Positions 9,069 to 27,159 of a stretch of 64,000 nt of DNA are shown here, in pieces. The stretch covers positions 1-64,000 of the IMG/VR virus record IMGVR_UViG_3300025138_000025. One strand, given 5' to 3'. Positions within the stretch are counted from its first letter, which is position 1. Every line of letters starts with the position of its first letter. The DNA is from a virus. The translations under genes were made by a program, and so were the position numbers. A model generated the notes under the pieces. The model had not been told where the DNA came from. It made no database searches and was given only the letters and a program-made list of their open reading frames with translations.

Positions 9069-10859
9069 CTATTTTCGTATGGTATAGATTTTAACTGGTT
9101 CCGACTTGCCTTTGACAGTCACCTCGTCTAGAAATTCATAATCGTAGCCATCTACTAAACTGTGCTCTGATATAATTAAATCTGCGTCGTATTCTTTACA
9201 ACTTGATTCTAGCCTTGCAGCCAAATTAACAGAGTCACCAAGGACACTATAATCAAACCGTGTAGTACTACCAAAGTTGCCAACGACACAGAGTCCTGTG
9301 TTAATTCCCGCTCCTGTATTAATCTCATCCAGGCCTTCTTCTCTGAGTTTTTCATTCAATTCTCCTAAGGCTACTCTCATTTCAATAGCCGCTGCTGTAG
9401 CATTCTCTACGTGTTTTTCGTCAGGAAGAGGAGCACCCCAAAATGCCATGATGCAGTCTCCCATATATTTATCTATTGTACCACCGTGTTTAAGTATTAT
9501 CTCAGTCTGATTGTCAAGAAAACGGTTAATGAGACTCGTAAGACCTTGTGGATCTTTCTGGTATTTTTCAGAGATGGGAGTAAATCCTCGAATATCCGAA
9601 AAAAGAAAAGTTAGTCGTTCTGTGAACCCACCCAATCTCAGTAATGTTGGGTCCTCCTGTAATTTTTTTACAAGGTCGGGGCTAACATACGTTCCAAATT
9701 GTTGTTTGATTCGAAGTTTCTGCAAATACTCTGTAATGAAACTCTTGAAAGTTACAATACTCCAAAACAAAATGGAGATAATTACGACACCACTAAGGTC
9801 AATCAAGTAAGAAGATTTATAAGCTTCCAGGACTGCGTAAATACAACCACCGATTACGATAATTATCATAGGTAGTGAGAAATAAACGCTTCTTGATGCT
9901 AGTAAAATCAGCAGTAGAGCCAAAACTGCAGCTCCCAGCTCTACTGTGACATTCCATGTCGGGATGGATGGTGATGTACCTTCAATAAGGTTGTGTAATA
10001 GGTTAGCTTGCAACTCATGTGGGAACTTTGGTCCTGCTGGAGTCGCTACTGGGTTGACAATTCCTTCTGCCGTAACTCCGATTATAATAAAAGGAGCATT
10101 TATAGGCGCTTCCATAAACTCTGAAGCGGATTGTCTGGTAAAATTGGTATTCCAGTCAAGGAATATGCGTGAATAAGAATCAGTTGTTATGGTTGGGTAG
10201 TTTGGTATTCTTACTGACTCGATTCCTGAGAGGCCAGTACGTAATTGATACGACGGATCTCCAACTCCCACGCGTAAAAGTTCTAAAGCGAAGGATGGGT
10301 ATAACTTATCTTGTACATTTACAACAAGAGGCACTCTTCTTGTGACTCCATCGAGCTCAGGGGTTGCTGTAACGATACCTGCGCCGGAACGAGTTAGTGA
10401 TAAATTCTTCTCAGTACGTATTATGCCAGGATATTTAAACAACCATGGTGTAGGATCCTCTCCTAACTGTGCAGTGCCTACATGAGGACCGCTTTTCTCT
10501 GATTGTAGAGATACTGCTGAAGCCAAAACAGTCGATACTCGATTCATAGCAGTTGCTAGTCTTACATCATTAGCTGGATTACGCAAGTCTGGGTCTGGCA
10601 TCAACACTGTGATACCAGGCACAGCACTTGTTCTTTCTATAATAGATGCGTATAAGTCTCTCGGTAATGGATAACCTCCGTATGCTTCTACGATTTCTTC
10701 ATCAAGGTCTATTATAAGAATATTCTCATTTTGTACTGGTTCGTCAGACATTATGAGATAGTCAAATACTTTTAGTTCTAGTATTTGTAAAGGGGTAGGA
10801 TTCCAAATTAGGATTCCTAAGAAAAGGGACATAAGTCCTAAATTAATAAGTTTATTCAT
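9069..10859 (-). CDS. CHASE2-domain adenylate cyclase
   Basis: 596 residues. An N-terminal signal anchor (~5-20) precedes a periplasmic CHASE2 sensor (~27-300), then three transmembrane helices (~305-321, 328-345, 352-374) and a cytoplasmic class III cyclase domain (~412-596). Catalytic residues look complete: metal Asp422 (SDIRGFT) and Asp468 (DKYMGDCIMAFWG), adenine-selecting Lys464 and Asp536 (FDYSVLGDSVN), transition-state Asn545 and Arg549. It should make cAMP in response to a periplasmic signal. CHASE2 cyclases commonly sit beside FecR-domain genes in bacteria, and a FecR gene lies two genes upstream here. Very unusual cargo for a phage. GGDEF or phosphodiesterase motifs are absent. Confidence 0.93.
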   Translation of the reverse strand: MNKLINLGLMSLFLGILIWNPTPLQILELKVFDYLIMSDEPVQNENILIIDLDEEIVEAYGGYPLPRDLYASIIERTSAVPGITVLMPDPDLRNPANDVRLATAMNRVSTVLASAVSLQSEKSGPHVGTAQLGEDPTPWLFKYPGIIRTEKNLSLTRSGAGIVTATPELDGVTRRVPLVVNVQDKLYPSFALELLRVGVGDPSYQLRTGLSGIESVRIPNYPTITTDSYSRIFLDWNTNFTRQSASEFMEAPINAPFIIIGVTAEGIVNPVATPAGPKFPHELQANLLHNLIEGTSPSIPTWNVTVELGAAVLALLLILLASRSVYFSLPMIIIVIGGCIYAVLEAYKSSYLIDLSGVVIISILFWSIVTFKSFITEYLQKLRIKQQFGTYVSPDLVKKLQEDPTLLRLGGFTERLTFLFSDIRGFTPISEKYQKDPQGLTSLINRFLDNQTEIILKHGGTIDKYMGDCIMAFWGAPLPDEKHVENATAAAIEMRVALGELNEKLREEGLDEINTGAGINTGLCVVGNFGSTTRFDYSVLGDSVNLAARLESSCKEYDADLIISEHSLVDGYDYEFLDEVTVKGKSEPVKIYTIRK

Positions 10860-11029
10860 GATACATATAAGTTAATAACTGTAAACGATAATATCATAAA
10901 TCCAAATACGCATACTTGGACTATTGACATCCAAACGATTTGTTTCATGGGATGTACGTCTACTATTTTTTCTACCCAGTCTTCACTAGGTGCTAGGTTT
11001 ACGACCTGTAGGATTTTTTCTTCTTTCAT
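10856..11029 (-). CDS. Small single-span membrane protein between curlin and cyclase
   Basis: 56 residues from MKEEKILQVVNLAPSEDWVE, start chosen at the ATGA overlap with the curlin stop. A single transmembrane helix (IVWMSIVQVCVFGFMILSFTV) is near the C-terminus. It overlaps the cyclase start by four bases, so it is coupled to it. Could be a cyclase partner; unknown. Confidence 0.7.
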   Translation of the reverse strand: MKEEKILQVVNLAPSEDWVEKIVDVHPMKQIVWMSIVQVCVFGFMILSFTVINLYVS

Positions 11030-11820
11030 TGTTGTGTGATTGTTATTGTTTTTGTACATTCTGACGTACAGTTAAAAGTTGCAGTATAAGATTGATTCGT
11101 AGCACCAGACTGTGTTACTCCTACATCATATCCTGTTGTATAAAATTTCATATTTGCTACATGAGCTCCTGCTCCATATTGTGTTAAGTCTACTTCATTA
11201 TCAGAGTTGTAAAAGAATATGTCTGCATCTTTATTTCCAGTACCATATTGAGTTACATTAGCCGTGTTACGGTGCGCAGCACCATTTCCATAAATATAAG
11301 AATTATGTTGGCCAGTACCATACTGAGAAACAGTGATATTAGAATCGTCACCGAAAAAGAATATTTTACTATATTTGTTGTTTCCTGTTTGAGTAGTTGA
11401 ATAAACATTATCGTCTCCTGAGCCTAATGATTCCGAATGGTTATCATTCCCTGTTTGAGTAACGGTTACTGTATTGTCGTCTTCGTCTTGGTCAACATAT
11501 GCATAGTTATCATTTCCGTCTATAGTTACGGTAGTAGAGTTTCCTATGTTATTTGACCATACAGTAAACATCTTAACATTATTACTATTACCTTCTACTA
11601 TACTGCTCCATGTAGCATTTGTACAGCTGTGAGAACTATAATTAGCTCCTAGAATAGCACCTCCAGAATTTGCTCCGCAAAGAATAGTGGTAGTATTACC
11701 ATTGCCAATTTGTTTAGTAGTAATTTGATTGTTAGTACCTTTAGTAATAATTGTAGTAGAGTTATCTCCTGCAAAACTAAGGGGACTGATTAATAATAAT
11801 AACGTTATCGCCCGCACCAT
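11026..11820 (-). CDS. Curlin-like amyloid repeat protein
   Basis: 264 residues with a signal peptide (MVRAITLLLLISPLSFAG). The body is Asn/Thr/Gly/Gln-rich with repeats such as NTVTVTQTGNDN, DSNITVSQYGTG, NTANVTQYGTGN and NEVDLTQYGAG, matching the curlin N..x.v.Q.G..N repeat of CsgA/CsgB subunits. It should be exported through CsgG and could form surface fibres. It has cysteines (CGAN, CTNA, CTSEC), which classical CsgA lacks. The start lies inside the end of the FecR gene. Confidence 0.85.
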   Translation of the reverse strand: MVRAITLLLLISPLSFAGDNSTTIITKGTNNQITTKQIGNGNTTTILCGANSGGAILGANYSSHSCTNATWSSIVEGNSNNVKMFTVWSNNIGNSTTVTIDGNDNYAYVDQDEDDNTVTVTQTGNDNHSESLGSGDDNVYSTTQTGNNKYSKIFFFGDDSNITVSQYGTGQHNSYIYGNGAAHRNTANVTQYGTGNKDADIFFYNSDNEVDLTQYGAGAHVANMKFYTTGYDVGVTQSGATNQSYTATFNCTSECTKTITITQQ

Positions 11821-12877
11821 TTATACTTACCTCCATAATTACTCCTGCATTGTCAATATATAAATAAGTACCTGCGTTTGTGTCGATACCTATATCGTAG
11901 TTGTTTTGTCCTTCATGTACAAAATAAATTATATCTCCTTCAACAAATGTGTAGGTTTGGTATACTGGATCGAATCCTCCTATGATACCTTCTAACTCTA
12001 CTCCATTTAGCTGAGAAGCCTGTGAGCCTTTCTTATTTGTAGTCTCTACTAATGCTAATAAGTCTACGAGAAATTCTACACCTAATAAATCTATGTCTAG
12101 TCTTGTGACTTCTTTATCTTCTTCGTCACATTCTTCTACTAATGCATCACAGTCTAAATCTGGTGCATCGTCAAAGAAGTCTTTGTCTAATTCGGCAGTC
12201 GGTGATACTCCTGCTTCTTGTTCTTCAACAGCTTGTACTACTTCTTGGGGCTTATTTACTATAAGCATATTGTCAATCATTCCAAGTGTGATACCACTGA
12301 GTTTAACCTTGGGTGTTGGTCTTTGTTCGTATGTTGATACCATAGTAGCTTGAAAGGCCTCATTAAGAACCTCTACTCCTGCTGCTGTTGTTACTGTAAT
12401 CTCTCCTGATGAGTTTCCGAATTCATCGGGAAGTAGTATAACGAGGCTTCTTCCTAGCTCGTCTACTGTTGTTGTGAAATCTGTCCCACGAATACCTATT
12501 TGGGCTGTGGGAGTCTTTATGCTTATATTCTCTTTGTTCATTTTACCGAACTTTCCTGAAATAAACCTAGCTGTTCCAGACGCCATGTTGAGTGCCATTT
12601 TTGACTTGCTTGGGTCTGGATCATAAATGTATTCATCTATGATTAGTTTTGATTGTTCTGTGAGTCTTACAACTGAATTGTCTAAAAACTCAATGGCTAA
12701 TCTGCCGTTTCCTGTTCTAACATCATCGAAAGGGAGGATATCTGACTGTAGTTCTGCAGTCAAAGAGTCCCCAGAATCTCTTCTAGTTATCTCGCCGGTA
12801 CCCCGTAATTCAGATATCTCTCCTATTTCAGTTGACAAGGCCGAAACACTAAAAAGTGCTAACAGCCAGATGCGCAT
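11777..12877 (-). CDS. FecR-domain secreted protein
   Basis: 366 residues with a signal peptide (MRIWLLALFSVSALS). Residues ~35-130 form a FecR domain: LQSDILPFDDVRTGNGRLAI, FLDNSVVRLTEQSKLIIDEY, SGTARFISGKF, IKTPTAQIGIRGTDFTT. An acidic linker (~215-260) and a C-terminal beta segment ending INQSP follow. FecR domains are periplasmic and often precede CHASE2 adenylate cyclases; here it is sandwiched between two curlin genes with overlaps on both sides. There is no sigma factor gene nearby, so classical FecI regulation is unlikely. Confidence 0.85.
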   Translation of the reverse strand: MRIWLLALFSVSALSTEIGEISELRGTGEITRRDSGDSLTAELQSDILPFDDVRTGNGRLAIEFLDNSVVRLTEQSKLIIDEYIYDPDPSKSKMALNMASGTARFISGKFGKMNKENISIKTPTAQIGIRGTDFTTTVDELGRSLVILLPDEFGNSSGEITVTTAAGVEVLNEAFQATMVSTYEQRPTPKVKLSGITLGMIDNMLIVNKPQEVVQAVEEQEAGVSPTAELDKDFFDDAPDLDCDALVEECDEEDKEVTRLDIDLLGVEFLVDLLALVETTNKKGSQASQLNGVELEGIIGGFDPVYQTYTFVEGDIIYFVHEGQNNYDIGIDTNAGTYLYIDNAGVIMEVSINGAGDNVIIINQSP

Positions 12878-13536
12878 TGGTCTACATTAATAGTACCACT
12901 TGATGTGGTAGATATTATGTTTGCAACGTTCGTACTTGCAGTATCAGTTTGGTCAATAGTTACAGTATTTGAGCTACCAGTTAATGCTACCGTAATAGCA
13001 TGGTCAGCTGAACCTGTTTGTAAAGTGGTTATAGTATTACTATTACCATCTATATCCCAATTATTAATACAACCCACAACCTCACAAACACCAGTAACAC
13101 TATTAGATGTACCAGTTATTGCAAAATCATTGTTTGCACCAGTAGCAGTTGAAGCTGCTCCTTGTGTCCAGACTAGTACGTTACTATCTCCGACTGTGAT
13201 ATAATCAAAATCTGAGCTAGCTGCATCACCTGTGGCTCCAACAGCTAAAGTAGCTGAGTTAGAATCACCAGTAACGCGGTACGTCCAACTGGATGAGTTG
13301 CCTTGTAGGATAGAAGCTAGAAAGGAGTTAGTATCTCCAATCTGGTCTATATCTACTGTCATAGATGTACCTGACAAAGTTGCTCTTGCAGAAGTTGTAC
13401 CAATTGTATTAGTAGCACCTATCTGGTCAATAGTCAATGTAAGTCCTGTACCTGTCTGGGTGATATAAATATCATTGTTCCCAGCGAACGCTGTAAAAGA
13501 TAGACATATCGCGAATAGTCCTAGTATCTTTTTCAT
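12859..13536 (-). CDS. Second curlin-like repeat protein
   Basis: 225 residues from MKKILGLFAICLSFTAFAGN, the start picked for its GGGAGAAAAATAGA ribosome site and signal peptide. Repeats such as NNDIYITQTGTG, MTVDIDQIGDTN, NSVTGVCEV, NTITTLQTGSAD and NTVTIDQTDTAS follow. It differs from the other curlin enough to be a distinct subunit, perhaps major/minor like CsgA/CsgB. It lies directly after csgG. Confidence 0.85.
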   Translation of the reverse strand: MKKILGLFAICLSFTAFAGNNDIYITQTGTGLTLTIDQIGATNTIGTTSARATLSGTSMTVDIDQIGDTNSFLASILQGNSSSWTYRVTGDSNSATLAVGATGDAASSDFDYITVGDSNVLVWTQGAASTATGANNDFAITGTSNSVTGVCEVVGCINNWDIDGNSNTITTLQTGSADHAITVALTGSSNTVTIDQTDTASTNVANIISTTSSGTINVDQCASGC

Positions 13537-13537
13537 T

Positions 13538-14392
13538 CTATTTTTCTCCCAGGCTTGAGTAATTAAAATCCCAAACCTCTTTTTCGAGGCCTTGAACAAC
13601 TAAACCGTATACAGCTGCTTCAATAGCAGCTCTTGTGGCGTGTCCAACAGCTTCGTTTTCCGTATAGCCACTTTCGATTTCAACGAGTTCTGTACCAAGT
13701 TCTATGAACCTGAATACATCGCCTCCACCTCCAGTAGACAATATGGTTTTTGTGGTTGTAACATTTAACAAGACTTCTCCTGTCTGAACTAATACTGCTC
13801 TTAATGTTACTGTAACGATATCTTCACGATATTGATTTTTCATACCGATACCTAAGTATCGAGCACCGTTACCACCAGTTCTTATGTTAGTGTCATAACT
13901 AATTATTCCACCTTCAATAATCATCCCTGCATATAACAGGGGTTTTAAAATTGTTTTTGCATCACTGCCACCACCGTAATTTTCAAAGGTAGTTCGCACT
14001 AATTGTCTTTCTTTCGTAAGTCCATCCAAACCTGTTCTTTCTACAACTACAAACCAGTTACCTCTACCAGCATCTCTAAGTGCTTCGATTAGTATATGGT
14101 GTGGGCCTTGCGTCACTGCAGTACTGAAACTAGCAATGTTATCTCCACCTTTTCTTTGACCTGTTAAGTCATTGAATTGGTAGACGGCTACTATAGTTTT
14201 TTGGTTTGGGTATGGTAAATTCAACAACTGCTCTGTAGCAGATGTTTGTATAACAGGACCTTGCGTACAGGCTAAGAAATCGCCATTGCAGTCCATGTTT
14301 GATTTAGGCATGCCAATTACAGCACAGCCTTGTAGTATTAGTAATATTGAGAGTAACTTAACCGCTTGCACAATCTGAAAAACATCCACCAA
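13538..14392 (-). CDS. csgG: CsgG-type curli secretion channel lipoprotein
   Basis: 284 residues from the TTG at 14392. It has a lipobox (LLILQGC) and strong agreement with E. coli CsgG: KTIVAVYQFNDLTGQRK, SFSTAVTQGPHHILIEALRD, FVVVERTGLDGLTKERQLVR, GGIISYDTNIRTGGNGARYL and the end GLVVQGLEKEVWDF. CsgG forms a nonameric outer-membrane pore. Start is uncertain: TTG at 14392, or GTG at 14389 or 14371; the last places the lipobox at a typical distance. It overlaps csgF. No CsgE gatekeeper gene is visible. Confidence 0.93.
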   Translation of the reverse strand: MVDVFQIVQAVKLLSILLILQGCAVIGMPKSNMDCNGDFLACTQGPVIQTSATEQLLNLPYPNQKTIVAVYQFNDLTGQRKGGDNIASFSTAVTQGPHHILIEALRDAGRGNWFVVVERTGLDGLTKERQLVRTTFENYGGGSDAKTILKPLLYAGMIIEGGIISYDTNIRTGGNGARYLGIGMKNQYREDIVTVTLRAVLVQTGEVLLNVTTTKTILSTGGGGDVFRFIELGTELVEIESGYTENEAVGHATRAAIEAAVYGLVVQGLEKEVWDFNYSSLGEK

Positions 14393-14849
14393 ACTGTCCT
14401 ACTGGTATTACAATCGTAGTAGTAGAAAGTAGAACTCCATCCATCCATTCTTCGACAGTCAATGTAATATTGACGCCATCGTTCATCCAGATGATTCTAT
14501 TTCCTTCTAACCAGATTTCTCCAAATATAGGATTTTCTAAGGTGCCTGGAGTATCATAATTAAATAAGGACTCCGAGATATCTTTCGCAAGTGTAGAGTA
14601 AATTCTACTTTCTAAGTTTCTTAGGAATTTTGCAAGTGTTGTGTTTTCAGCTTCTCTTTGAGCTTCGTCTAAAGCATCCTGAGCTTTTTGTGCTAGTGCT
14701 TCTTTTCTTGTTCTTTCTTGTTCATCAATAGTTAAATAGTGTGCAGATTGATTAATCCCACTAAAACTAGGTGATCCGAATTTATGTACCAGTTCCGTTG
14801 CGTTTACTGTCGTTGCTAGTACTATTAGTGTTATTACGCTTTTTTTCAT
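14358..14849 (-). CDS. csgF: CsgF-type curli assembly factor
   Basis: 163 residues with a signal peptide (MKKSVITLIVLATTVNA). The mature N-terminus ELVHKFGSPSFSGINQSAHY matches the CsgF FRNPNFGGNPNNG region that plugs into the CsgG channel. A longer helical stretch (TRKEALAQKAQDALDEAQRE) and a beta-rich end follow. Two C-terminal cysteines (CFSDC) are atypical. The gene precedes csgG with a 35-bp overlap. Confidence 0.85.
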   Translation of the reverse strand: MKKSVITLIVLATTVNATELVHKFGSPSFSGINQSAHYLTIDEQERTRKEALAQKAQDALDEAQREAENTTLAKFLRNLESRIYSTLAKDISESLFNYDTPGTLENPIFGEIWLEGNRIIWMNDGVNITLTVEEWMDGVLLSTTTIVIPVGQFGGCFSDCASG

Positions 14850-20881: not shown

Positions 20882-20944
20882 AATGATAATCATTCTCATT
20901 TAAAAAAATTCGAAAATTTTTTTATATGCGCCGAAGGCGCCGAC

Positions 20945-21015
20945 CAGTGCAGTAACGAAACGATGTGACGTGGACCTGCGCCGCAGTACAGTACCGAAAC
21001 GATATGTCAGTGTCT
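20945..21015. repeat. Two tandem copies of a ~25-bp repeat
   Basis: CAGTGCAGTAACGAAACGAT and CAGTACAGTACCGAAACGAT start about 37-38 bases apart. A 17-bp core TGCAGTAACGAAACGAT is also present in terL at about 5184-5200. Confidence 0.5.
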
Positions 21016-21628: not shown

Positions 21629-21710
21629 GGGGCGCCGAAGTGCCAAAACGAAGTGCGAAAACGACGGTGCATGCGCCGAAGTGCTAAAACGAAGTACAAA
21701 AACGATGTTT
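21629..21710. repeat. Two near-identical ~33-bp tandem repeats
   Basis: GCCGAAGTGCCAAAACGAAG with GCGAAAACGACG and GCCGAAGTGCTAAAACGAAG with TACAAAAACGATG. Flanked by a CCCCGTAGCGGGG hairpin. They resemble the 20945 repeats in the CGAAACGAT-like core. Confidence 0.6.
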
Positions 21711-22045: not shown

Positions 22046-22360
22046 ATGGCAACAACAGTAAAAAATTACACAGATGAAATGGTCGCATCAATGGTAGAAG
22101 CTTACACAGCAGAACCAACAAGAGAGACTGTAGACTCATTAGCACAAGAGTTAGGCAAAACTACAAGAAGTATCATTGCTAAACTTTCAAGAGAGGGCGT
22201 GTACCAAGCACAACCGAGAACAACTAAATCTGGAGAGCCTGTAGTATCAAAAGCAGAACTCGTCAGTGCAATTGCTTCTCACTTCGACATTGAAGTACCG
22301 ACTCTAGTGAAAGCAGGTAAGCAAGACCTACAGAAATTAGTCGACGCAATCAATTCCTAA
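22046..22360 (+). CDS. Small helix-turn-helix protein of a phage paralogue family
   Basis: 104 residues from MATTVKNYTDEMVASMVEAY. The N-terminal half (SLAQELGKTTRSIIAKLSRE, GVYQ) looks like a SANT/sigma-4-like HTH; the C-terminal segment (AELVSAIASHFDIEVPTLVK) is a second small helical domain. The product of 27150 is nearly collinear. An in-frame ATG at 21899 behind its own promoter would add 49 residues (MKKDKEITQDYFAKQSIAAK...). Likely a transcription or genome-architecture regulator; I do not know a named family. Confidence 0.85.
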   Translation: MATTVKNYTDEMVASMVEAYTAEPTRETVDSLAQELGKTTRSIIAKLSREGVYQAQPRTTKSGEPVVSKAELVSAIASHFDIEVPTLVKAGKQDLQKLVDAINS

Positions 22361-22462: not shown

Positions 22463-22590
22463 CACATTTTAAAGTGGGAACACGAAAGCAGGAAGTGACT
22501 ACGGAAGCACACCTAAAAGGGAAGTAGCAAGTTCGACTCTTGTCCTAACTTTCGGAAGGTTCATTCGAATTGAACTCCCACCTTAAAATG
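22463..22590 (+). ncRNA. tRNA-like structured element
   Basis: A 15-position outer helix pairs CATTTTAAAGTGGGA (22465-22479) with TCCCACCTTAAAATG (22576-22590) with one mismatch. Inside are a canonical T-arm-like hairpin GCAAG-TTCGACT-CTTGT (22527-22543), another with loop TTCGAAT (22559-22575), and a D-arm-like CAC-GAAAGCAGGAA-GTG. It is too long (about 110 nt inside the helix) and lacks U8 and a normal anticodon arm, so it is not a standard tRNA. Could be a decayed tRNA or part of a larger RNA. Confidence 0.5.
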
Positions 22591-22623
22591 TACAAAGTTT
22601 TTCAAGATTTTCCTAAATATTTC

Positions 22624-22652
22624 TTGACAAATGGTAAGAAAGTCTGTATAAT
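22624..22652 (+). promoter_or_regulatory. Promoter for a short RNA
   Basis: TTGACA, 17-bp spacer, TATAAT. Shares TTCTTGACAAATGGTWAGAA with the promoter 180 bp downstream, suggesting duplication. Confidence 0.85.
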
Positions 22653-22658
22653 ATACTT

Positions 22659-22800
22659 ATATTCAGAAAAAGAGAAGGGAAATGGAAATAAGGGCAACTT
22701 GCAAAGCAATCCTGATTAACCTGACCGACTCTAAGTGGATGCAACCCCGTTGGGATTGAGTCAAAGTTTTAACTACCAAGTAGTAAATAAACCAAAATTC
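22659..22800 (+). ncRNA. Short promoter-driven RNA upstream of the large RNA
   Basis: About 140 bases between two near-identical promoters. It has an ACTAC-CAA-GTAGT hairpin near its end and a GACTC...GAGTC stem enclosing ACCCCGTTGGG. The only ORF is 25 codons (from ATG 22681) with a weak ribosome site. I see no strong terminator, so it may be read into the large RNA. Confidence 0.5.
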
Positions 22801-22803
22801 TTC

Positions 22804-22832
22804 TTGACAAATGGTTAGAAAGTGGATATAAT
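22804..22832 (+). promoter_or_regulatory. Promoter of the large structured RNA
   Basis: TTGACA, 17-bp spacer, TATAAT; expected start near 22839. Near duplicate of the promoter at 22624. Confidence 0.85.
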
Positions 22833-22838
22833 ATATAT

Positions 22839-23937
22839 TCAGAAACAAAAAATAGACGACATTGAAATACAGGCAAAAATTAATGATTGAGCTGTGACCT
22901 CCTCGGAGTGAGCCAATAAATAAACCTTCAAAGTCGTACCTCTCGACAGTGGCAGTTCAACGAGATTAAAAAATGCAAACGAGACATTGCCTGCTGCATC
23001 GCAAGTATAGTCTAAAACAAGGGAAGCGAGCCGGCAGTACAATATGTGCCGAAGGGACGGAGAGACGCAGTATTCAATAATTCTACTGTAAGCCACGCCA
23101 TGCGATTCAGCTTTAGCTGTCAAGTGGAGAGTAGGATTACCTAAGAATGTAGTGATAAGCAGTATTGCAGTTACCACCATTGAGTGCTGAACTGAACAGC
23201 GAGAGCATATCGTTAAAACGGAAAGGACAGCATAGTCGTAAGAGTAATTCCTAAACAAGACTTTTCGACAGGTGATTGAGGCGTAGATACATCCATAATA
23301 TCTCGTAGACGAAGCACTATATCGTCTTTAATTATCAGTAGTAAGTGGGCAAGGTGTCTATTCGAGAGACACCACGCTAACCTGCGGTGTAGACCAACCA
23401 ATTGCATGATGACGATTGTTGAAACGGACTTCGGTCGTATAGTAAACAATTAGCAGTGCCGTCGAGTAGGAGTCGCCACATACAGTAGAGGAAAACGCTT
23501 CGGCGTAACGCCTTGAAGAGTGGAATAACGACACATAATCGAATGTATGGTAGAGTTGACGGGGGCAGTTAGCAACTTTAATCAGTGTGCGAGTGATGAG
23601 AAGAAAGGCAGTAGCTCTGTCAAACACAGGAGCAATCTTTGTGTATATCTCTCACCGACAAGTAATGTGAGCATATTAATTATTAGCGAGTAGCAGTATC
23701 GTCTAAAAGTGGGAAGAAACAGCATCTTCGGATGGGGGCTTCAATGTAAGTCCGACATGGAATAGAAAGCCAAACTCTGCACAGAGTGAGTGAGTAATCC
23801 TTAAGTCTCTACACTTCTAGCAGTAAGACTACCATCGCAAGTGCGAGGAGACTAATTACCTCTCGTGCGACACTCAAAAACCAATCTATTGATGAGTTTT
23901 TAGGGCAGTTGAATTAACTTTCATCTGCCTTTTTTTA
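22839..23937 (+). ncRNA. Large (~1.1 kb) ornate structured non-coding RNA
   Basis: A promoter at the left and a terminator at the right bound ~1,100 bases lacking a supportable ORF on either strand. It is dense in stable hairpins: GGTGTCT/AGACACC (23358-23379 area), AGACGA/TCGTCT, CGGCA/TGCCG, CAGC-TTTA-GCTG, and UUCG-capped ACGC/GCGT, CATC/GATG and GAC/GTC. GC is higher than in neighbouring genes. Size, phage context and nearby tRNA-like fold suggest the GOLLD/ROOL type of giant phage RNAs, or a new class; I cannot confirm membership by eye. Confidence 0.8.
23903..23937 (+). terminator. Terminator of the large RNA
   Basis: GGCAG...CTGCC hairpin (with inner TTGA/TCA pairing) followed by a run of seven or more T. 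Confidence 0.85.
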
Positions 23938-23987
23938 TTCCCACCAAAACATAACATCAAAATTCCAAACATAATTAAATATAGTTC

Positions 23988-24016
23988 TTGACAAACAGGT
24001 CAAACATCTGTATAAT
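23988..24016 (+). promoter_or_regulatory. Promoter of the 24.0-27.7 kb operon
   Basis: TTGACA, 17-bp spacer, TATAAT; an AAAGGAGAG site follows before the first ATG at 24050. Confidence 0.88.
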
Positions 24017-24049: not shown

Positions 24050-24442
24050 ATGATGTGGCAAGAATTATCAAATTGGGAAGACAATCATAACTCGATAGTG
24101 TTCGGAGTTATGAGTACAGAAGATGTGCGAGAGTCACTTTCATACTGGAACGCCTTCGAAAAAGACGAAGATGAGTTCATTTGCGACATCAATGATGTAA
24201 GTGAGAGACTTATTATGGCAAGTATGAAGTATGCTTACAACACAATCGACGAACCAACATACAACTATATGCTAGAGGTTATCTACGACCACTTAGTAGA
24301 CACACTAAAAGAACGCATCAAAGATGCAGTAGACCAACAGCGACCACATAATATTACTAAAGGTAATTTATGGAACAGCGAAACAAAAGAGTTTGATAAG
24401 GTCAGTGACTTTATGAGACAGAGACAAACAGAATTATTTTAA
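24050..24442 (+). CDS. Hypothetical acidic protein
   Basis: 130 residues, helical and acidic (MMWQELSNWEDNHNSIVFGV; YWNAFEKDEDEFICDINDVS). AAAGGAGAG site about nine bases upstream. First gene of an operon of small genes. Not recognised. Confidence 0.8.
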   Translation: MMWQELSNWEDNHNSIVFGVMSTEDVRESLSYWNAFEKDEDEFICDINDVSERLIMASMKYAYNTIDEPTYNYMLEVIYDHLVDTLKERIKDAVDQQRPHNITKGNLWNSETKEFDKVSDFMRQRQTELF

Positions 24443-24452
24443 GGAGAGCGTA

Positions 24453-24677
24453 ATGCCAACAAAATTCAAACAATCAGAAAAAGTGTTTAAGCGTGGAGTG
24501 AAAGCGTCTAAACTAAAAGACAAGCACTTCTATATCAAAGATGTGAACAAGGACGAACTGTTCAAGTGCATTAATGAAGATAGAACAAAGCCAAAGCAAA
24601 GACAAAAGTGTCTAAATGAGTTGGCGAGACGAGGCATCCAAATTAACTGGGTAGAGCCAAGTGAGGTGACGACATGA
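24453..24677 (+). CDS. Small basic hypothetical protein
   Basis: 74 residues, MPTKFKQSEKVFKRGVKASK, then KDVNKDELFKCINEDRTKPK and QRQKCLNELARRGIQINWV. AAGGAGAG precedes the ATG. Two cysteines and high charge; not recognised. Confidence 0.75.
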   Translation: MPTKFKQSEKVFKRGVKASKLKDKHFYIKDVNKDELFKCINEDRTKPKQRQKCLNELARRGIQINWVEPSEVTT

Positions 24678-24811
24678 GATGGGGTGGAAAGACACAACAC
24701 ATTAGTGTAAAAAAGAAAACATCACAAGGCGATAGCCACAACAGAGTGAGTCTTAACATGAACAAGAACAAAAAGCGTTCATTCAAGAAGTACAAAGGTC
24801 AGGGCAGATAA
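24674..24811 (+). CDS. Small basic phage protein ending in KYKGQGR
   Basis: 45 residues, MRWGGKTQHISVKKKTSQGD ... NMNKNKKRSFKKYKGQGR. The SQG...NK.K+S.KKY+GQG+ ending is one I recall from many unrelated phages. Coupled by ATGA and TAATG on both sides. Confidence 0.7.
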   Translation: MRWGGKTQHISVKKKTSQGDSHNRVSLNMNKNKKRSFKKYKGQGR

Positions 24812-27026: not shown

Positions 27027-27159
27027 AGAAGAACAGTTCTGGAATTGGGAAGAACAGTATGGAACTGAAGAAGCTATTGAAGTAGCAGCAGAGGAGTGGG
27101 GAATGTCAACCCACAGAGTTAAAACACAAATCAAAAAATGGGAGGATGCATGGCATTAA
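27004..27159 (+). CDS. Small HTH-like protein
   Basis: 51 residues, MHTKETAREEQFWNWEEQYG then TEEAIEVAAEEWGMSTHRVK, resembling a short helix-turn-helix. Overlaps its neighbours on both sides. Probably another relative of the HTH family next door. Confidence 0.65.
   Translation: MHTKETAREEQFWNWEEQYGTEEAIEVAAEEWGMSTHRVKTQIKKWEDAWH

Follow-up and report, generated by a model that had tools for sequence, protein, structure and literature searches.

Positions 22839 to 23936 (+ strand) of an uncultured virus genome encode, with a probability that we put at about 0.9, a large structured non-coding RNA, the founding member of a new class in phages. The source record is an 88,165-bp uncultured virus, of which the first 64 kb were analysed (the window); for its phage terminase (50%) and DNA polymerase (47%) the nearest isolates are T5-like phages. 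Uncultured bacterial viruses carry this non-coding RNA gene of about 1,000 letters at a constant place in the genome, and its annotation here rests on covariation, a non-coding test, a family of 42 members and conservation across the locus. The RNA is shown to be structured and non-coding, because its base pairs covary, substitutions are spread evenly over codon positions, and insertions and deletions break the reading frames. We speak of a new class of “large ornate phage RNAs” because covariance models identify it as neither GOLLD nor ROOL, and the likeness to these is, as far as tested, one of size, setting and complexity only.

Transcription unit, locus and family

A sequence-only reading of the window had proposed a consensus promoter and a strong terminator around a region without a credible open reading frame and with a GC content above that of its flanks, and these proposals hold up. 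The promoter at 22804–22832 (+) is an exact TTGACA-N17-TATAAT consensus, and the intrinsic terminator at 23903–23936 (+), recognised in the sequence as a hairpin followed by T7, forms helix 33 of the near-relative consensus. From the end of the terminator it is 52 bp to the promoter of the next transcription unit (23988–24016, +), again an exact consensus. The + strand of the RNA region has no open reading frame of at least 60 aa, and the 1-kb slice 23001–24000 is the GC peak of the whole window (0.424). A first sigma70-type promoter, also of exact consensus and conserved in homologues, lies at 22624–22652 (+) and would give a short leader transcript or a 5' extension. It stands 180 bp before the giant-RNA promoter; the leader region between them (22624–22803) contains a ACCCCGUUGGGA hairpin, and most members have a similar tandem promoter. 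The window has 14 exact sites of this kind against 0.16 expected, three of them at the RNA locus (22624, 22804 and 23988). Because a perfect host-type promoter, an RNA of about 1.1 kb and an intrinsic terminator follow one another, the RNA is probably a product of the host RNA polymerase; judged from the promoter alone, without transcript data, it would be transcribed strongly, that is in quantity, and probably early.

The locus has conserved boundaries on both sides. On the left is the gene of a 104-aa DNA-binding protein (22046–22360, +; HTH-like; PHROG 1725 / 323, E 1e-6) with weak similarity to T5 D5-like regulators, which sits 85–534 bp 5' of the giant RNA in 33/33 motif-found loci. A small DNA-binding paralogue, likewise related to the D5-like regulators, is found about 5 kb away at 27138, so that the pair flanks the region. 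Directly downstream of the RNA lies a variable gene of 130 aa (24050–24442, +) without assigned function, absent or diverged in some relatives. The right boundary, established by gene-neighbourhood comparison, is the KFK gene (24453–24677, +), which encodes a basic protein of 74 aa and follows the RNA in 32 of the 33 motif-found loci; in the remaining one (L057) KFK was undetected, but the next gene is present. KFK has no Pfam family, no isolate-phage match and no significant PDB fold match, and the isolate phages searched gave no match for the flanking proteins. A very basic 45-aa protein (PHROG 17967; 24674–24811) follows KFK in most loci and is a candidate RNA-binding partner. Further away, imperfect short direct repeats to which no meaning is assigned occupy intergenic positions 20930–21010 and 21630–21705 (CAGTRCAGTANCGAAACGATRTG; GCGCCGAAGTGCYAAAACGAAG). 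At 9069–14849 (-) the phage carries a curli set composed of two curlin-repeat proteins, CsgF, CsgG, a FecR-domain protein and a CHASE2-adenylate/guanylate cyclase; published work discusses curli genes together with marine phages (PMC9004378, PMC9599517).

To collect members of the family, IMG/VR was probed with the H hairpin (GAUUCAGC-UUUA-GCUGUC) and the J strand (CAAGUAAUGNGAGCAUA), both near-invariant, and with a type-A stretch. This yielded 56 complete units, 33 of them non-redundant, each consisting of a promoter, 0.86–1.54 kb, a terminator and the next promoter. Nine more members came from two further probes, one for the M hairpin and one for the D-arm in the tRNA-like gene upstream; in at least four of the nine (L100, L102, L104 and L111) neither H nor J is recognisable. 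In all, searching IMG/VR by motif, by tRNA-like gene and by protein gives 42 non-redundant members of 0.86–1.54 kb, all linked into a single component by local similarities within the RNAs (E below 1e-6). Their global identity with the window RNA falls to 0.43–0.48, compared to 0.40 for one shuffled control; being near random, it leaves the homology of distant members to rest on shared modules, synteny and chains of pairwise local similarity. The giant-RNA promoter is present in 42/42 members, but as the ends of each member were set by its promoter and terminator, finding both in every member is partly by construction.

An independent check on these promoter-delimited members comes from a set of loci collected through the downstream protein, irrespective of the RNA sequence. 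A KFK profile search of IMG/VR returned 490 relatives, of which the best 80 loci were kept, and 49 of these also had the HTH gene upstream. All 49 loci with both flanking genes, among the best 80 of 490, carry a unit of promoter, 0.89–1.30 kb, T-run and promoter. This set is biased towards phages resembling the window phage, and the contigs are uncultured, partly fragments and without host assignment. Isolate phages gave no full-length or convincing match for the giant RNA, and the 23-nt H motif had no match in prokaryote genomes.

Covariation and recurring modules

The structure of the RNA is shown by covariation, not by stability. The downstream gene gave access to 14 related contigs; apart from a near-identical copy, the RNA region was usable in ten, and the resulting near-relative alignment comprises 11 sequences, in whose consensus structure 98.3% of cells are paired. 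Changes on both sides that still allow pairing occur in 28 base pairs, compared to 11.5 in shuffled alignments (0/500 reach 28) and at most five in slid controls, and G-U pairs are found among the accepted pairs. The alignment of group B alone has 271 pairs, 70 of them with double changes, a figure that does not include a shuffle control. For distant members the consensus structure was built module by module and not globally. In contrast, the minimum free energy of the window RNA (-278.5 kcal/mol) equals that of dinucleotide shuffles (-278.7 kcal/mol; z 0.0), and in other members (n = 17) the folding z ranges from -2.1 to +0.6, so that thermodynamic stability was rejected as evidence of structure. 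The earlier suggestion of many stable helices is therefore borne out as far as an elaborate structure is concerned, but not in its appeal to stability, which does not exceed chance.

Not every predicted helix was accepted. RNAalifold proposed a long-range pairing of H in type A (GCGAU/AUCGC, helices 6–8), which we do not trust because these pairs barely vary while the local H hairpin covaries across lineages. Helix 1, which pairs a poly-A stretch with the T-run of the terminator, is probably an artefact. The loop of helix 31 holds a conserved AAUU palindrome that might form a kissing loop; as it was not seen in other groups, it is only a weak lead. The fold of L124 was discarded, as the coordinates of the ROOL RNA slice were uncertain.

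Each giant RNA is a patchwork of covarying modules, which recur across the family at differing positions. The H module (23104–23121, +) is the hairpin GAUU-CAGC-UUUA-GCUG-UC; its stem covaries (CAGC/GCUG, CAGU/ACUG, CAGG/CCUG), and the stem that hosts it differs between lineages. The J module (23575–23683, +), also supported by covariation, is composed of an outer covarying helix, a constant CAGN bulge, a 4-bp helix (RUGC/GCAY, with GGAC/GUCC in two lineages), an asymmetric loop (GAG / CAAGUAAUGNGA) and an exchangeable apical element, which may be H, a AGUAGUAGGG...CCCACGC unit or others. Over 25 distinct rows the outer helix of J is 87% paired, compared to 69% in shuffles, with a covariation score of 0.522 vs. 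0.176 (0/500). One RNA (L017:3609-3990) contains two copies of J, one with the H hairpin and the other with a different apical element, a picture of how modules duplicate.

The M module hairpin (23286–23302, +; GAU...AUC) matches the GAUNAYGACCAUACNAUC of relatives, and several lineages share it together with a GGCR hairpin (stems GAGU/ACUC, GUGA/UCAC and GACU/AGUC), the module positions being different. Another hairpin at 23353–23373 (+; helix 19), GGUGUCU...AGACACC, has the compensatory form GGAGUU...AACUCC in relatives. The three UUCG tetraloops that had been read from the window are confirmed as C(UUCG)G hairpins at 23426–23436 (helix 23), 23496–23505 and 23723–23734 (all +). CUUCG/UUCGG is enriched 3–4-fold and AGUAG 2.4-fold over dinucleotide shuffles, and AGUAG is possibly, by inference, a loop-E signature. 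The giant RNA folds, as covariation shows, into autonomous modules, namely H, J, M, GGCR hairpins, loop-E-like AGUA elements and UUCG caps.

The tRNA-like neighbour and competing explanations

The setting near tRNAs that had been anticipated applies in altered form: the window has no true tRNA, but it has a tRNA-like RNA at 22464–22591 (+). This RNA has an extended acceptor stem and T-arm mimics (GCAAG-UUCGACU-CUUGU and GUUCA-UUCGAAU-UGAAC) and is not called by ARAGORN. A tRNA-like RNA is present in 19/33 motif-found loci, 156–465 nt 5' of the giant RNA. Its anatomy comprises a constant D-arm (GUGUCUACGGAAGCAC in relatives), a T-loop of the UUCGACU type, a long acceptor stem and, where the anticodon arm would be, a tiny hairpin of 3–4 bp or an irregular arm. 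The mini-arm and the T-arm have covariation support, while the D-arm is invariant. A normal tRNA-Glu also stands upstream of the giant RNA in L062 and L089, and tRNA clusters lie a few kb off in L018, L041, L051 and L058. The tRNA-like RNA is possibly a second new RNA family. It resembles YrlA (Y RNA-like, RF02553), a tRNA mimic whose long stem bears features of the D- and T-arms, in a weak match of 16.9 bits, which is far under the gathering score of 69. As no Ro60/TROVE gene was found in the phages searched and the YrlA score is sub-threshold, a Ro60/Y-RNA identity was rejected.

Could the giant RNA serve the take-over of translation? The most likely mechanism, although inferred and held with less than even confidence, is that it builds a large RNA-based particle, alone or with small basic phage proteins, for this purpose. 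The neighbour is often a tRNA-like RNA without the usual anticodon arm, or a true tRNA-Glu, which is why a link to translation can be inferred, and the domain-like exchangeable architecture is what would be expected of a scaffold made of three-dimensional modules. The RNA would act through its fold, rather than as an mRNA or by linear antisense pairing. The particle draws on an analogy with GOLLD and ROOL (PMC12286853) and with an abundant non-coding RNA of phage ICP1 (PMC7567579). More doubtful is the specific form in which the giant RNA would self-assemble into a large homo-oligomeric particle with swappable three-dimensional modules and act with a dedicated tRNA mimic on the host translation machinery. 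Oligomerisation, a protein partner and an effect on translation are inferred only; none of them is shown by the present data.

Among the competing explanations, one casts the RNA as the scaffold of a ribonucleoprotein with a small basic downstream protein, either KFK or the 45-aa protein at 24674, as partner. KFK is indeed basic and lies close 3' of the RNA in nearly all loci, but the evidence is gene neighbourhood only and KFK has no recognisable RNA-binding fold, and we judge this explanation unlikely. Even harder to support is the idea that the transcript is cut into several small regulatory RNAs, each module working by itself. Autonomous modules that turn up repeatedly and in changing places would suit it, as would the predicted short leader transcript that comes first; against it, 42 lineages keep one promoter, one terminator and a length of 0.86–1.54 kb, one module may sit inside another, and segments far apart are brought together in the consensus fold.

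It is improbable that the giant RNA is a GOLLD or ROOL so diverged that Rfam models no longer recognise it. The size range, the occurrence in phages, the ornate fold and the nearby tRNA or tRNA-like genes would all agree with this (PMC12286853), but neither the GOLLD model (RF02032, gathering 150 bits) nor the ROOL model (RF03087) has a match in the window genome or its relatives. The ROOL model performs on a known ROOL, giving 130.4 bits in L. salivarius pMP118 as a positive control. Lactobacillus phage LBR48, tried as a control for GOLLD, contained no GOLLD, and because this positive control is missing a very distant GOLLD is less firmly excluded. Across all Rfam families the window has no match at gathering thresholds and two chance hits at E up to 5; OLE, HEARO, raiA and other Rfam models returned tRNAs and sub-threshold hits only. 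Of the two outcomes left open by the sequence-only reading, a member of GOLLD or ROOL and a distinct class, the second is therefore supported by the absence of covariance model matches. The covariation, the lack of which would have refuted that reading, is strong.

Very improbable, in turn, is an element that works at the level of DNA, such as an origin, recombination or packaging site with inverted repeats that mimic RNA structure: the genome position is fixed in all members, as such an element would require, but the promoter-terminator unit is strand-specific and never inverted with respect to its neighbour genes, loop sequences are conserved, and the accepted pairs include G-U. Protein coding or overprinting on the minus strand, where open reading frames reach 139 aa (followed by 89 and 78 aa), can practically be ruled out, as neither of the two frames examined (139 and 89 aa) has the pattern of a coding sequence, substitutions in the largest are spread evenly over codon positions (23/20/17, with L003) compared to 14/6/29 in an adjacent protein gene (with L006), indels are mostly of 1, 2, 4 or 11 nt and thus mostly not multiples of three, and the positions of the frames vary from member to member; the protein-like codon conservation that would have refuted an RNA gene is absent.

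Comparison with known large RNAs

Few RNA classes of bacteria or phages are known to reach such a size and complexity. GOLLD and ROOL form RNA-only cages that are larger than ribosomes and whose function is unknown. An RNA of about 800 nt without an open reading frame is encoded between gp139 and gp140 of ICP1, a Vibrio cholerae phage without tRNAs, and is its most abundant transcript (PMC7567579). It is similar to the giant RNA in being a large phage RNA without coding capacity; on reading its sequence, without a computed alignment, we saw neither H nor J and no obvious relation, and it has no Rfam match above threshold, so that it was not retained as a relative.

ROOL resembles the giant RNA as a large ornate phage or plasmid RNA found by tRNA islands, but the giant RNA is longer (0.86–1.54 kb vs. 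574 model positions) in addition to lacking a match. With GOLLD it shares phage encoding, a length of about 0.8 kb or more, an ornate fold, a frequent location near tRNAs and variable domains. It differs in the missing RF02032 match, and the homo-14-mer cage is that of GOLLD, an oligomer of the giant RNA being inferred by analogy. The recurring H, J and M modules and the fixed HTH-RNA-KFK locus are, to our knowledge, not features of GOLLD. A further class adds to the few giant RNAs known from phages, and its portable mosaic of covarying modules is a rich source of new three-dimensional RNA motifs. Present in all tested loci (49/49) of a widespread T5-like clade, often by a tRNA-like gene, it amounts to an independent natural experiment on the purpose of such RNAs.
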